A stretch of DNA of 64,000 nt. Origin: Desulfovibrio sp. Its GTDB lineage: Bacteria > Desulfobacterota > Desulfovibrionia > Desulfovibrionales > Desulfovibrionaceae. Position numbers and translations under genes: made by a program. Positions 28,405-34,224 of the stretch are shown here, piece by piece (position 1 is the stretch's first letter; each line of letters starts with the position of its first letter). A model generated the notes under the pieces. That model did no database searches, was not told where the DNA came from, and worked only from the letters and a program-made list of their open reading frames with translations. The stretch is taken from assembly GCA_031287575.1 (NCBI GenBank), contig JAITSV010000062.1, positions 62,001 through 126,000 of the forward strand, given 5' to 3'.

Positions 28405-29184
28405 TTACGCCATGGCCACCCCCTTGCGGGTGAACCCGTCAGGGCTTGTGACGGGGCTTGTGACGGGGCTCGTGCCAGCGTCATGCAGGGCGCGCCACCG
28501 GGCAAGGTCCTGCACGGTCAGCACGGGCATGTCCTGCCGCGCGCCAAAGGCCAGCACTTCCGGCAGGCGGGCCATGGTGCCGTCCGGGTTGGTCAGTTCG
28601 CACAGCACCCCGCAGGGCGAAAGGCCCGCAAGGCGCATCAGGTCCACGGTGGCCTCGGTGTGCCCCCGCCGTTCCAGCACGCCGCCGGGGCGGGCGCGCA
28701 ACGGAAAGACGTGGCCGGGGCGGCGCAGGTGTTCCGGCCGTGCGCCGCGCGCTGCCGCCGCCTTCACCGTGGCCACCCTGTCGGCGGCGGAAACGCCGGT
28801 GGTGACGCCCTCCGCCGCCTCGATGGTCACGGTGAATGCCGTACCGGTGCGGCTGGTGTTGCAGGCCACCATGGGCGGCAGCTCCAGCGCGTCGGCATGG
28901 GCGTCGGTAAGGCACAGGCAGACGATGCCGCTGCCCTCGCGGATCAGCAGGGCCATCTGCGCCTCGGTCAGGGTTTCGGCGGCGAAGATCATGTCGCCTT
29001 CGTTCTCGCGGTCCTCGTCGTCCACGACAAGGATGCCGCGTCCCGCGCGCAGGGCGTCCAGGGCCTGCTCGACCGTAGCCAGATCCGGCCGAGGGGCCGG
29101 CCCGACCTGTGGCACGGGCATGACGGAATGCATGGGGGGGCCGGTGGTTCCGGCCTGAACGGGAGTGGGGGACGGCTGATTCAT
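28405..29184 (-). CDS. ribB: 3,4-dihydroxy-2-butanone 4-phosphate synthase
   Basis: Makes the four-carbon precursor of riboflavin from ribulose-5-phosphate. The 259-aa protein contains the Mg-binding [16 protein letters not shown] and the downstream motifs [38 protein letters not shown] and [14 protein letters not shown]. It is a stand-alone RibB, not fused to GTP cyclohydrolase II. About 35 extra N-terminal residues (proline-rich) precede the enzyme core. The C-terminus carries a SPVTSPVTS repeat. The ATG at 29184 is preceded by AAGGAG. Control is by the FMN riboswitch about 220 bp upstream in its leader. Confidence 0.96.
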
Positions 29185-29408
29185 GGCGCATCTCCTTGGC
29201 TGGAGGTCCAGAATCAGGGCGTGTGGAAACGCGGCGGGACGGAACACCCCCAGGCAACGCGCCGGGATGGGATCCGGAGCACACGTCGCAGCCGCGCCCG
29301 CCGGAAGGCCATGCACCGGCACGCCGCACCGGCGGCCATGCCGTCACGCACTACGCCACGCCCCCTGTCGGGCAGGAACTGCCCACGGGGTCGGCTGGCG
29401 TTGCGCCG

Positions 29409-29562
29409 CGTCCTCTTTCATCCGGACTGTTACCGTCGGCCCCGGCATCTCACCGGGTCTGCTGACCCCGTTCCACGACGGAACGGGCGCTCGCGGGCTC
29501 TCCGGCGCAGCGTGCCGCGCGGGAATACCGCCGGTGGGGACTTTCACCCCGCCCTGAGGATT
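29409..29562 (-). promoter_or_regulatory. FMN riboswitch (RFN element) upstream of ribB
   Basis: The minus strand carries the conserved RFN blocks in order: CAGGGCGGGGTGAAAGTCCC, ACCGGCGGTA, GCCCGCGAGCG, GGTCAGCAGACCCGGTGAGA, GGCCGACGGTAACAGTCCGG and ATGAAAGAGGA. These form the six-arm FMN aptamer. The expression platform must lie in 29185-29408. When FMN is abundant, ribB expression should be switched off. Confidence 0.97.
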
Positions 29563-29719
29563 CGGGCCGGATGCTACATCCACCGGGCACGCGATGCAAG
29601 CGCGGCCTTGGAAGGGGGGAAAGGGAGACGAAGGATGAGGGACCACGCGGGACGGCGCCGTGTGTGATGGTGGCGGACGGGGAGAGCGGCACGCGAAGGC
29701 GATGCCACCACCAGGCGCG

Positions 29720-29915
29720 GAAAAGTCGAAAGCCTCCTGCGGGACGGGGGGGGTGTCCATACAGAAGGCTTCCGAAAGGGGGGGATCTGAAGTAACACCC
29801 CGGACCTTGGGCGGATGGGGGGGGGATATCCGCCAGGGACCGGGCACATCAGAGCCTGTGTCGACTGCGGGGGTCGGGGGGGGGACCGCCGATATGGCTT
29901 GTGTCCCGCAGTCTC
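29720..29915 (-). ncRNA. Candidate sigma-54-dependent small RNA with poly-C loops
   Basis: Predicted transcript of about 195 nt starting near 29915, about 12 nt past the sigma-54 -12 element. Hairpin 1: outer stem GACTGCGGG (29913-29905) with CCCGCAGTC (29871-29863), enclosing GGTC-(C)8-GACC (29887-29872). Hairpin 2: GGCGGAT (29834-29828) with ATCCGCC (29816-29810), loop AT plus nine C. A seven-C run follows at 29784-29778. Hairpin 3: AGCCTTCTG (29770-29762) with CAGGAGGCT (29739-29731, one G-U pair), enclosing GGAC-A(C)8-GTCC, then a T-rich stretch (29730-29721) as a terminator. No convincing frame is encoded. Exposed C8-C9 loops could pair with G-rich Shine-Dalgarno sites (inference). It lies just downstream of an NtrC-type regulator, as CrcZ does after CbrB. 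Confidence 0.65.
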
Positions 29916-29925
29916 CTCCTTATTT

Positions 29926-29941
29926 AGCAAGCTGCGTGCCA
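29926..29941 (-). promoter_or_regulatory. Sigma-54 promoter
   Basis: On the minus strand, TGGCACGCAGCTTGCT matches the -24/-12 consensus (TGGCAC-N5-TTGCW) without mismatch. It fires leftward into the poly-C-loop RNA region. A purine-rich AAGGAGGAG follows around +1. The neighbouring activator gene (30156-31616) is a sigma-54 enhancer-binding protein. Confidence 0.85.
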
Positions 29942-30047
29942 CAATGTGAGCAACCACTAGCCTCAATCATTTCCCTGTAAAAACATACTTATACGGAAAA
30001 TACTGAGACCCGCCCAGAAAGCGGAGGCCTTGTTTCAACGCCCCGCC

Positions 30048-30075
30048 GTGCGAAATCGCACGTGCTATTTCGCAC
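30048..30075. promoter_or_regulatory. Tandem palindromic activator sites
   Basis: Two abutting 14-mers: GTGCGAAATCGCAC (30048-30061, perfect GTGCG-N4-CGCAC) and GTGCTATTTCGCAC (30062-30075, one change). The outer arms GTGCGAAAT and ATTTCGCAC also form a 9-bp inverted repeat. The centre is about 147 bp upstream of the predicted sigma-54 start, a normal distance for an enhancer-type site. A third copy occurs at 34225-34238. Confidence 0.7.
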
Positions 30076-30155
30076 AGTAGGGCGATCCCGCACATCTTCA
30101 TGCTGCACCTATTGTATGGGTAGGGAAATCCCTAATCCATGCAAGGCCGCCCCGG

Positions 30156-31616
30156 TTACTTGGCCAACCGCCGGTGCAGCGCGAACCGTGAAATGCCCAA
30201 ATGTGCCGCGGCACGGCTCTTGTTGCCGCCGAACCGCTCCACTGCCTTGCGCACCAGGCCGTCCACCAGCGCTTCCACGTCGAAGGGGGCATCGGGCAGC
30301 GTCAGGTTGTCCGGGTCCAGCCGCCACGGGCCGGGCTGACCGGCGGTGCCCGGCACCGACACCTCGGCGACACCGTGTTCGTCCAGAAAGCTCAGGTGCC
30401 GGGCGGTGAGGGCGGGGCCGTCGTGCAGCAGCACGGCGCGCTCCACGGCATTTTCCAGTTCGCGCACGTTGCCCGTCCACGGGTGGCGGCCCAGCAGGCG
30501 CAGGGCGTCGGGCGAAAGCGCGGTGAAGCGCTTCTTCTTGCGCACCGCCTCGCGTTGCAGGAACAGCCCGGCCAGCACGGGAATGTCCTCCGGCCGTTCG
30601 CGCAGCGGGGGGATGCGCAGATGTCCCACCCGCAGCCGGTGGTACAGGTCGCGCCGGAATTGCCCGGCTTCCACCATGGCCGAAAGGTCGCGGTTGCCCG
30701 CGCAGACCACCCGGGCCTTGAATTCGCGGCGCTTCACCCCGCCCAGGCGGTAGAAGCAGCGTTCCTCCAGCACCCGCAGCAGCTTGGGCTGCAAGGAAAG
30801 GGGCATTTCCGCCACTTCGTCCAGGAACAGGGTGCCCCCGCCCGCCAGTTCCAGCTTGCCGGGGGAGCCCCCGGCGCGGCTGCCGGTGTAGGCCCCCGGC
30901 TCGTGGCCGAACAGTTCCGCCTCGAACAATTCGTGCGGGATGGCCGCGCAGTTCAGGGCGATGAACGGGGTGTCGTTGCCCGATTCTCCGTAGTGGATAA
31001 GCCGGGCCACCACTTCCTTGCCGGTGCCCGTTTCACCCTCGATGAGCACGGGCACGGACGGTTCGGCATGGAACACCCGCGTTTCGTCCAGCAGCCCGGA
31101 CATGGCGGGCGATGCCGCCACCACTTCGCCGATGCCGGTCACCTGGCGCAGCCGGGTGCGGGCCGATTCCAGTTCGCGGCGCAGGGTGTCGGCCCGTTCC
31201 TCCACGGCCTCGTCAAGGTGTTCGCGCAGTTCCCGGTTTTCCATGAGCAGCGCCTGATGCTCGGCGCAACGCTCCACCACCGCCGCCAGCTCACGGGCGT
31301 TGATGGGCTTGTTCAGGTAGTCGTAGGCCCCGCGCCGCAGCGCCTCGACGGCGGTTTCCATGTCGCCGTGGCCGGTGATCAGCACCACGTCGGCCTCTGC
31401 GGTGGAGGGATCTTCCTTCAGGTGCGAAAGCAGCGTCAGGCCGTCCATGCCGGGCATGCGGATATCGGTGATGATCAACGGAAACCAGGTGGTGCGGGCC
31501 TCCGCCAGCGCGGCCACGGGGTCTTCGAAGGGTGTCGGTTCGTACCCCAGGTCGTGCAGGACGAGGCTGAGGCTCTGGAGGCTCGGCAGGTTGTCATCGA
31601 CGATGAGTATGCGCAT
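30156..31616 (-). CDS. NtrC-family sigma-54-dependent response regulator
   Basis: A 486-aa cytoplasmic activator. The receiver (residues 2-118) has ILIVDDN, phospho-Asp in LIITDIRMPGMDG and lysine in YLNKPI. The AAA+ domain (about 155-390) has the Walker A GETGTGKE, the sigma-54 contact loop GAYTGS in place of the usual GAFTGA, and the Walker B GGGTLFLDE. The C-terminus is a Fis-type helix-turn-helix (NKSRAAAHLGISRFALHRRLAK). The ATG at 31616 follows AAAGGA. Its kinase gene lies 231 bp upstream on the same strand. Downstream are palindromes, a sigma-54 promoter and the candidate RNA, so it probably activates that RNA (inference). Confidence 0.95.
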   Translation of the reverse strand: MRILIVDDNLPSLQSLSLVLHDLGYEPTPFEDPVAALAEARTTWFPLIITDIRMPGMDGLTLLSHLKEDPSTAEADVVLITGHGDMETAVEALRRGAYDYLNKPINARELAAVVERCAEHQALLMENRELREHLDEAVEERADTLRRELESARTRLRQVTGIGEVVAASPAMSGLLDETRVFHAEPSVPVLIEGETGTGKEVVARLIHYGESGNDTPFIALNCAAIPHELFEAELFGHEPGAYTGSRAGGSPGKLELAGGGTLFLDEVAEMPLSLQPKLLRVLEERCFYRLGGVKRREFKARVVCAGNRDLSAMVEAGQFRRDLYHRLRVGHLRIPPLRERPEDIPVLAGLFLQREAVRKKKRFTALSPDALRLLGRHPWTGNVRELENAVERAVLLHDGPALTARHLSFLDEHGVAEVSVPGTAGQPGPWRLDPDNLTLPDAPFDVEALVDGLVRKAVERFGGNKSRAAAHLGISRFALHRRLAK

Positions 31617-31847
31617 GTGAATGTCCTTTGGGCATCGTGAAGGCGTCAGGGTGGCAGCATCTTTCGCACTTGGCCGCGCACCGGCGCATGCGCCGTGGCG
31701 CGGGGGCATCCCCCCCAGTCAGCAGTCCGTGGCAGTCCGTCCGGCAGCCAGTCCCGATGGCTCATCCCGACGGGCTGGTCCGGCGACATGGCATTATCCG
31801 GGCGACCATCAGCGCATCGCGTCCTCCCACACATGGGGACGGTGCAC

Positions 31848-34160
31848 CTACCTGCCGGTGTCGGGCTCCGGCGGCGAGGCCTGGCGCAAGGCCAGGGTGA
31901 ACGCGGCGCCGGTCATGGGCGGTTCGCCGCCGGACACGGAAATCTCGCCGCCCCATGATTCCACGAAGCTGTGCACGATGGCGAGGCCAAGACCCAACCC
32001 CTTGTGCGGGTCCTTGGTGGTGAAGAAGGGGTCGAACACCCGGTCCTCCAGGCCTTGCAGCCCCGGCCCGTTGTCGGCCACGGTCAGCAGCACGCGGCCC
32101 GCCGGAGCTTCGCCGTCCGCCGGGCTTCCCCCCTGCCCGTCGCCCGAGTCCAGCCGGTCCTGCCTGTCCGGCCTGTCCTGCCTGTCCGAAATCTCCGGCC
32201 TGTCCGAAATCTCCGCCCTGTCCGCCCTGTCTGGCCTGTCTGGCCTGTCTGGCCTCTCGGCACCGTCGCGCCGCGCGGGCCGGTACGCGGCTTCGATGCG
32301 AATGCGCCGGTCCTGCCCGTCCGCCGGTTCCCGGGCATCCAGCGCGTGCATGGCATTGACCACCAGATTGATCACGACCTGCTCCAACTGCACCGGGTTG
32401 GCGCGCACGGCCGGCAGATCCGGCGGCAGCACGCGCTCCACGGTCACCCGGTGGGCGCGCAACTGCGCCCCCACCAGCCCCAGCGCCCGGTCAACCGCCG
32501 CCTCGACCAGGGTGGGCGAAAGGGCCGTGTCGCCGTGGGCCACCAGCGCCCGCATGTGGTCGATGATGTCACGGATGCGCGCCGTCTCGCCAAGAATCAG
32601 CGAAAGACGGGCCAGCAGGGTTTCCCGGTCCGGCGGCCGGTCCTTTTCGGCCAGCATCTCCAGGCTGCCCGCATACAGTTGCAGGGCCGACAGGGGCTGG
32701 TTGATCTCGTGGGCGATGCCCGTGGCCAGGGTTCCCATGGCCTCCAGCTTGCGGGCGCGCTGCAATCGTTCCTCCACGCGCAGGCGGTCGGTCTCGTCCT
32801 CCAGCATGACGATGACCGAATCCACCCCTCCGTCGCCCGCCAGGATGGGGCACGACGTCAGGCGGTACGACCGGCGCCCCCCGGAACGGGCCGCTGTCTC
32901 CAGTCGCCATTCGTGGGTCTGCCCGTCGCGGAAGGTGGCCAGGCAGGCGCAGCCGGGACAGCGGGTGTTGTCCTCGCCGCAGTGCTCGGCCAGCATGCGG
33001 CACAGCAGCCCGCCGGGCGCCGCCGCCTCGCCGAACCATTCGCGCAGGCGGGGGTTGGACGCGGTGATGCCCAGGGCCCTGTCCAGCACGGCAATGCCGA
33101 GGGTGAGGTTGTCGGTGATGGAGCGGTAGCGGCCCTCGCTGATGGACAGGGCTTCCTGCGCGCGCACCCCGGAGGTGATGTCGATGCCCAGCTTGAGCAC
33201 CAGGGGCGATCCGTCCACGTCCTCGAAGGGATAGGAATAGATGCGGAAGGCGGAGCGGCGTTCCGGGCAGGCCCATTCGCACACGCACAGGGTGCGCGAA
33301 TCGAACACGTCGAAGGGCGGGCACAGCGCGCAGGGCTGGTTCTGGCCCCGGATCACCTCGTAGCAGGGGCGGCCCACGCCGGGGCCGAACAACTGGCGAA
33401 AGCCCCGATTTTCGTAGCGGATGGAATAGTCAGGTCCCAGCAGCACCACGTAGGCGGGCAGCCGGTCCAGCAGGTTGAGCAGCCGGGTTCGTTCGCTCCA
33501 GGCCGGGGCGGGCCCCTCGCTGGACAGGCTGGACAGCGGGGTTGCCGTCAGGGTGGCGCAAAGCACCGGCCCCTCGTCGCCAGCTCCGGAACATCCTGAT
33601 GCCCCGGGCGCAACGCCGCGCAGGGGGCGCGGGGTGACCAGCAGTTCCACCGGGGTGCCGGTTTCTCCACGCAGGGACAGGGAATACGGCGTGGGCGCAC
33701 CGGCCGCCTGACGGTGCATCTCGCGTTCGAGCACGGAAAGGTTGCCGGGGGAGGAGAGTTCACCCACCAGGCGCGGCAGGAATTCCGACGCGGACCAGCC
33801 GGTCTGGGGCAGGATGACCGAGGCCGCATAACTGAAGCCGCCCATGGACGTCGCCTCGTGCGGCGCCTGCGGGACAGGGGAACCAGAGGGGCTCGTGGAC
33901 ACGGAAGGAGCGGACTGATCGGGCGCGTTCCTTGGCGCGGTGTACGGCACGCCGGGAACATCGGCGATCTGGGACAGCAGCGCGGCCACGGGCGAGGGCA
34001 AACGGCGCGGCAGGCGCATCACCCGGTCCGCACCAGTCAACCCACCGGGAAAGCCGTCCCCGGCGGGTGCGGATGCAAGGCGGGATGCGTCCGGTGTACG
34101 AGAGGCGTCATCCCCCTCGGATGGGACGGGCTGTGCCGCGTGGTCGTCCGATGCGTGCAT
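31848..34160 (-). CDS. Sensor histidine kinase with Cys-rich PAS domains, partner of the NtrC-type regulator
   Basis: A 770-aa protein with no clear membrane helix. A low-complexity N-terminus is followed by PAS domains. One (about 225-330) has cysteines near 266, 277, 280, 292, 294 and 298 (PCYEVIRGQNQPCALC); the next (about 345-460) has cysteines near 387, 394, 401, 404 and 406 (CPGCACL). HisKA: GIAHEINQPLSALQL, His near 484. The ATPase N-box is VVINLVVNAMHAL and the G-boxes are DNGPGL and GLGLGLAI. Between them is an inserted low-complexity segment of about 60 residues built from RPD-type repeats. The cysteine groups suggest Fe-S, haem or thiol sensing (inference). Start: ATG 34160; a GTG at 34190 is possible. 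Confidence 0.9.
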   Translation of the reverse strand: MHASDDHAAQPVPSEGDDASRTPDASRLASAPAGDGFPGGLTGADRVMRLPRRLPSPVAALLSQIADVPGVPYTAPRNAPDQSAPSVSTSPSGSPVPQAPHEATSMGGFSYAASVILPQTGWSASEFLPRLVGELSSPGNLSVLEREMHRQAAGAPTPYSLSLRGETGTPVELLVTPRPLRGVAPGASGCSGAGDEGPVLCATLTATPLSSLSSEGPAPAWSERTRLLNLLDRLPAYVVLLGPDYSIRYENRGFRQLFGPGVGRPCYEVIRGQNQPCALCPPFDVFDSRTLCVCEWACPERRSAFRIYSYPFEDVDGSPLVLKLGIDITSGVRAQEALSISEGRYRSITDNLTLGIAVLDRALGITASNPRLREWFGEAAAPGGLLCRMLAEHCGEDNTRCPGCACLATFRDGQTHEWRLETAARSGGRRSYRLTSCPILAGDGGVDSVIVMLEDETDRLRVEERLQRARKLEAMGTLATGIAHEINQPLSALQLYAGSLEMLAEKDRPPDRETLLARLSLILGETARIRDIIDHMRALVAHGDTALSPTLVEAAVDRALGLVGAQLRAHRVTVERVLPPDLPAVRANPVQLEQVVINLVVNAMHALDAREPADGQDRRIRIEAAYRPARRDGAERPDRPDRPDRADRAEISDRPEISDRQDRPDRQDRLDSGDGQGGSPADGEAPAGRVLLTVADNGPGLQGLEDRVFDPFFTTKDPHKGLGLGLAIVHSFVESWGGEISVSGGEPPMTGAAFTLALRQASPPEPDTGR
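32150..32262. repeat. 9-bp-period repeat tract inside the kinase gene
   Basis: Degenerate copies of a TGTCYGGCC-type 9-mer run through this stretch, ending in three near-perfect units at 32224-32253. That 30-bp block is identical to 47627-47656 in an unrelated gene. Here it is read on the minus strand as AGG-CCA-GAC (Arg-Pro-Asp). Confidence 0.85.
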
Positions 34161-34224
34161 GATGATGACGCATAGTGTTCTTTTTCGCACACAGCGTCAA
34201 AAGCTGATTTTTCAGGGCAAAACA

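Follow-up and report, generated by a model that had tools for sequence, protein, structure and literature searches.

A predicted sigma-54-dependent small RNA with conserved C-loops beside an NtrC-class response regulator in Desulfovibrio, very probably the ortholog of Dv_sRNA2

Our analysis of a 64 kb stretch of DNA from Desulfovibrio sp. (the window) revealed a putative small RNA that is preceded by a sigma-54 promoter and is predicted to display long runs of cytosine in the loops of successive hairpins. Comparison of sequences suggests that it belongs to an RNA family in which the C-runs are the main primary sequence conserved across genera and the stems covary or are replaced. Judged by regulator motif and synteny, the RNA is very probably the ortholog of Dv_sRNA2 from Desulfovibrio vulgaris. 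The C-loop architecture and its conservation are new here, as are the tandem copies in one genus and the candidate targets; the RNA itself was already catalogued. The promoter and the parts of the transcript are as follows:

29926..29941, minus strand: sigma-54 promoter TGGCACGCAGCTTGCT (-24/-12), zero mismatches to the consensus
29721..29915, minus strand: C-loop small RNA, ~195 nt, predicted 5' end ~29915 and 3' end ~29721
29863..29913, minus strand: stem-loop 1, with outer helix GACUGCGGG/CCCGCAGUC, a small GCC-GGC hairpin and the C9 loop 29876-29884
29783..29856, minus strand: stem-loop 2, with the C9 loop 29817-29825 and an invariant closing helix UCUGA/UCAGA
29778..29784, minus strand: C7 linker between stem-loops 2 and 3, mostly unpaired
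29726..29775, minus strand: stem-loop 3, a terminator-like hairpin with the C8 loop 29746-29753 and covarying pairs, then CTTTT

A first-pass annotation of the window had placed a consensus sigma-54 promoter at 29941-29926, followed by about 195 nt without a gene that folds into three stems with loops of 8-9 C and contains a further C7 run. Each of these points was borne out. The promoter TGGCACGCAGCTTGCT is the sole zero-mismatch match to the sigma-54 consensus in the 64 kb, and the RNA (29925-29720) folds with an MFE of -92.9 kcal/mol (z = -6.5), a stability equalled by none of 200 shuffles. The C-runs are C9 at 29876-29884, C9 at 29817-29825, C7 at 29778-29784 and C8 at 29746-29753; in the predicted fold the C9, C9 and C8 runs are hairpin loops, with the C7 run left unpaired as a linker. 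The three long C-runs of this RNA account for five of the six C8 words found across the window. The RNA sequence contains no A-rich repeats, and repeated GGA is absent from its hairpin loops, which are C-runs. Rfam matches at the gathering score were confined to FMN and tRNA families within the window, with none over 29721-29915, and the best sub-threshold match to the RNA was BjrC80 (23.1 against a cutoff of 80).

At the 3' end, the hairpin of the earlier annotation is present, but the T-rich tail amounts to only TTTT in the window RNA; the last hairpin and the CTTTT after it make a weak terminator, which was missed in a simple terminator scan. The homologs in Halodesulfovibrio end in a last hairpin with a better T-rich terminator than that of the window RNA. 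Two features lie downstream, neither of them noted in the first-pass annotation:

29406-29565, minus strand: FMN riboswitch (RFN element), in the same orientation as the RNA
28405-29322, minus strand: ribB, likewise in the orientation of the RNA

The four T are followed by ~150 nt before the riboswitch, and sigma-54 read-through into ribB is conceivable in the genus.

Upstream of the promoter are three palindromic sites, a regulator gene and a kinase gene:

30048..30061, minus strand: activator site C GTGCGATTTCGCAC, 10/10 to GTGCG-N4-CGCAC, conserved spacing
30062..30075, minus strand: activator site B GTGCGAAATAGCAC, 9/10 to GTGCG-N4-CGCAC
30080..30093, minus strand: activator site A GTGCGGGATCGCCC, 9/10 to GTGCG-N4-CGCAC
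30156..31709, minus strand: response regulator of the DVU0679 type with a GAYTGS loop (PF00072, PF00158, PF25601, PF02954)
31848..34190, minus strand: PAS-domain sensor histidine kinase (PF02518, PF00512, PF08448)

The upstream gene had been read as a sigma-54 activator, and Pfam agrees: the product of 30156..31709 combines a receiver, a sigma-54 activator domain and a Fis-type HTH and is of the NtrC class, with its likely start at MRILIVDD near 31616. The kinase encoded at 31848..34190 is presumed to be the partner of this adjacent regulator. In Nitratidesulfovibrio, Halodesulfovibrio and two further genera, kinase homologs are found at the equivalent place next to the regulator, and the kinase adjoins the regulator wherever there is enough sequence to judge. 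A low-complexity repeat, DRPDRPDRADRAEISDRPEISDRQDRPDRQDRLD, lies in the kinase (31848-34190, minus strand) between the dimerisation and ATPase domains. The tandem palindromes described upstream of the promoter are real, but they number three UAS-like sites (30093-30080, 30075-30062 and 30061-30048) rather than two, and sites B and C together form an inverted repeat. The three copies are spaced 17-18 and 14 nt apart in both Nitratidesulfovibrio and Halodesulfovibrio. This UAS trio accompanies the regulator orthologs that have the RNA and, one weak match excepted, was absent in the ~20 orthologs and paralogs without the RNA that were checked. Regulator-like genes having neither UAS nor RNA (g3, g5, g8, g29, g46 and most of g31) were set aside, and several of them, lying beside an unrelated gene, probably represent a different paralog. 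A match in G013 (L008) was rejected as a chance likeness to part of the palindrome.

The D. vulgaris Hildenborough regulator DVU0679 binds upstream of a small RNA, Dv_sRNA2, that lies downstream of its own gene and was mapped in 2011; Dv_sRNA2 is expressed on tiling arrays, its function is unknown, and orthologs were predicted in two further species (PMC3333781). A list from 2015 gives DVU0679 with the motif GAYTGS and the target 'ncRNA downstream' (PMC4641369). This motif occurs in one of 37 D. vulgaris EBPs, namely DVU0679 (PMC4641369 Table 1), and the regulator of the window, which has the same motif, is almost certainly its ortholog. Like the window RNA, Dv_sRNA2 is a non-coding RNA of the sigma-54 regulon just downstream of a GAYTGS EBP response regulator. 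The statement in the first-pass annotation that no Desulfovibrio RNA of this kind had been described was therefore mistaken, given that DVU0679 and Dv_sRNA2 were mapped in 2011 and relisted in 2015 (PMC3333781, PMC4641369). The published accounts searched yielded nothing about C-loops in Dv_sRNA2, or about its structure, breadth or targets. Three further D. vulgaris activators, DVU0653, DVU1419 and DVU2359, are also listed with ncRNA targets, of unknown structure (PMC4641369 Table 1).

Within the genus, the RNA interval was found in seven of eight genomes, among them Nitratidesulfovibrio liaohensis, N. oxamicus and Desulfovibrio sp. A2; the remaining genome has its regulator gene at the edge of a contig. 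The sigma-54 promoter is kept in all seven members that have the RNA, and the promoter, the C-loops and the GACTTTT end are nearly invariant. The C-runs vary in length from 6 to 9 and differ among species. The linker is C6-C7 in all genus members, with ACCAACC instead in Halodesulfovibrio. In the single-contig genome G007 (L003/L146), a frame break splits the regulator gene, either an assembly error or a recent pseudogene, and leaves the RNA, its promoter and the activator sites intact.

Outside the genus, divergent homologs of the RNA were recovered in Halodesulfovibrio with a covariance model. Counting Halodesulfovibrio, five other genera have the RNA next to the orthologous regulator, which makes six genera in all. 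In the two-genus alignment (Nitratidesulfovibrio and Halodesulfovibrio), both sides had changed in 12 of 23 pairs, 96.4% of cells were paired against 35-44% with slid partners, and the covariation exceeded that of all 500 shuffles. The outer helix of stem-loop 1 alone had both sides changed in 7 of its 9 pairs across the two genera, and the cores of the three loop C-runs were invariant. Comparison with relatives, as had been proposed from the window, revealed covarying stems and constant C-run cores.

Four further genera display the same architecture with unrelated stems downstream of their regulator orthologs. In G021, four hairpins carry loops of 10, 10, 10 and 7 C, and two genomes, G015 (L124) and G071 (L120), carry three and two tandem RNAs, respectively, with C5-C6 loops. 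These tandem RNAs are ~130 nt each and have their own sigma-54 promoter per copy; activator-like sites lie before the first copy and partly between copies, and the copies of one genome mostly resemble each other closely. In G022/G077 (L145/L133) and G073/G017 (L135/L136), a short open frame precedes four to five C-runs. That frame, of ~110-130 codons, separates the regulator from the RNA and has a sigma-54-like promoter upstream of it, and the RNA in these genomes may be cut from, or form the 3' end of, a coding transcript. Across 27 RNAs from 24 genomes in six genera, 76 of 102 C-runs fell in hairpin loops against 25 expected with flanks shuffled, a count that is descriptive and no strict test because the 27 RNAs are related.

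By analogy, the closest mechanistic relatives of the window RNA would be 6C/B11 and RepG, rather than CrcZ. The locus had been said to mirror CbrB-CrcZ of Pseudomonas, and this likeness stands as far as the regulation goes: in both, an NtrC-family regulator acts on an adjacent ncRNA through a sigma-54 promoter, with several copies in some species. CrcZ differs, however, in its A-rich Hfq/Crc sites, and no Hfq gene was found in the window organism. Hfq (PF17209) was absent in all 13 genomes searched, the window organism included, with positive controls, and a CrcZ-like reading was rejected on this ground. CsrB/RsmZ resemble the window RNA in their two-component control and in repeated identical loop motifs on variable stems, but their loop motif is GGA, for CsrA, whereas the loops here are C-runs; the lack of GGA loops led us to reject a CsrA sponge as well. 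RepG has a single C/U-rich loop. It differs from the window RNA in its unrelated sequence and other promoter control. In Helicobacter pylori, the target of RepG is a homopolymeric G-repeat within a chemoreceptor mRNA leader (PMC8295292), and in mycobacterial B11 (6C) the terminator C-loop pairs with G-tracts beside ribosome-binding sites without Hfq (PMC12395582, PMC10470900). The 6C/B11 family (RF01066; Actinobacteria) shares with the window RNA loops of at least 6 C, one of them in the terminator, and an Hfq-less host. It belongs to another phylum and usually has two C-loops, compared to three to five here, and, unlike the window RNA, it has no sigma-54 promoter and no paired regulator. The window RNA scored 15.8 bits against the 6C model (cutoff 47), which is below threshold and indicates no sequence homology.

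Candidate targets were sought by scanning genome-wide for the pattern G7-N3-10-ATG. This pattern outnumbered its reverse by 826 to 257 in the genus (3.2-fold) and by 328 to 201 in ten Halodesulfovibrio genomes (1.6-fold), against a control that ignores ATG abundance and Shine-Dalgarno sequences in both cases. Because the reversed control leaves these two factors uncorrected, no global G7-ATG effect is shown, and we found no clear genome-wide enrichment of G7 before ATG in the genus or in the ten Halodesulfovibrio genomes. A second, ATG-first control had to begin with ATGC and was not equivalent to the target pattern. When sites were read one by one, most matches were not gene starts and real G7 starts were few. 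The earlier suggestion that exposed C-runs sequester G-rich Shine-Dalgarno sequences is plausible as a mode of action, but its extension to many mRNAs is not supported by these counts.

Among the real starts, a giant BapA-type adhesin has G7 right before the ATG, at the position of the ribosome-binding site, in four Halodesulfovibrio species; at these loci (L227, L242, L218 and L271), G7-G8 replaces the normal Shine-Dalgarno sequence. VCBS/cadherin repeats were seen in one of the four adhesins, and the N-termini of two of them are merely 32% identical. A membrane sensor-like gene has G7 in two Halodesulfovibrio species, with N-termini 70% identical. In N. liaohensis, a type III restriction enzyme and a NuoH/EchB-like gene are among the G7 starts, and an adhesin G7 was not among the sites read in this one Nitratidesulfovibrio genome. 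Duplexes between C-loop and G7 were predicted at -18.6 to -25 kcal/mol. The G7-G8 run of the adhesins is possibly a C-loop target or a slippage-prone tract for phase variation.

On the analogy with 6C/B11, we consider it rather probable that the C-loops pair with G-tracts at translation starts. We infer both the target pairing and its effect, and propose action of the RNA on the candidate messages. In this model, the adjacent kinase and response regulator would activate the sigma-54-dependent RNA through the three palindromic sites, so that the RNA would accumulate once the kinase is triggered. The RNA would serve as a scaffold of independently folding hairpins presenting single-stranded runs of 5-10 C, and these would pair, without Hfq, with G-runs at or next to ribosome-binding sites. 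Such pairing would block translation and probably destabilise the messages, as with 6C/B11 and RepG. Having several equivalent loops in each RNA, and in one genus tandem RNAs as well, would give more capacity for a small set of targets, of which the giant adhesin would be the best candidate in Halodesulfovibrio.

The C-loops might instead be repeated sites that titrate a protein binding C-runs (e.g. Rho, or one of KH or cold-shock type), much as CsrA is titrated by CsrB/RsmZ and Hfq-Crc by CrcZ. Such a sponge would fit the three to five equivalent loops that each RNA carries on otherwise interchangeable stems, and the two or three tandem RNAs of a single genus, each with its own sigma-54 promoter; sponge RNAs under two-component systems are well known, and Rho prefers C-rich RNA. 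We nevertheless regard this as unlikely, as no candidate protein has been identified, the G7 at adhesin starts would be a coincidence, and the C-loop RNAs studied by experiment act through pairing. Much less probable is a leader of ribB, in which sigma-54 transcription would continue past the weak terminator through the riboswitch to ribB, with the hairpins as a long 5' UTR. In the Nitratidesulfovibrio members checked, the RFN element and ribB do lie downstream in the same orientation, and only four T come after the last hairpin. However, ribB was not found adjoining the RNA in Halodesulfovibrio and the other loci searched, where RNA and promoter persist and the terminator is better, and a leader was rejected as a general explanation because ribB is not beside the RNA outside the genus.

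That the interval encodes a small protein is hardly credible. Open frames of 130-167 aa do cross it on both strands, but none of the seven genus members has a closed reading frame within the RNA, shifts of 1-2 nt in C-run length between species break the frame, and selection acts on pairing; this reading was rejected on these grounds. We attach a similarly negligible probability to an element acting as DNA, such as a G-rich strand or slippage-prone repeat. The homopolymer tracts lie on one strand and vary in length among species, as such an element would have it, whereas compensatory changes in the stems, a dedicated promoter and terminator, a fixed strand and distance, and the expression reported for the D. 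vulgaris ortholog all speak for an RNA.

Returning to action as an RNA, it is quite possible, though we stop short of calling it probable, that in sulfate reducers lacking Hfq a regulated, multivalent display of C-runs silences adhesin and sensory genes with G-tract ribosome-binding sites, or titrates a poly-C-binding protein, as an independent second invention of the 6C principle.

In summary, our study offers a testable function for an orphan RNA known since 2011 in a model sulfate reducer, and indicates that RNAs with C-loops like those of 6C also occur beyond the Actinobacteria, under two-component and sigma-54 control. With loops conserved and stems not, this class of RNA is hard to find by sequence search. 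If the link to the adhesin is true, attachment to surfaces would be tied to an environmental sensor in bacteria relevant to biofilm corrosion.
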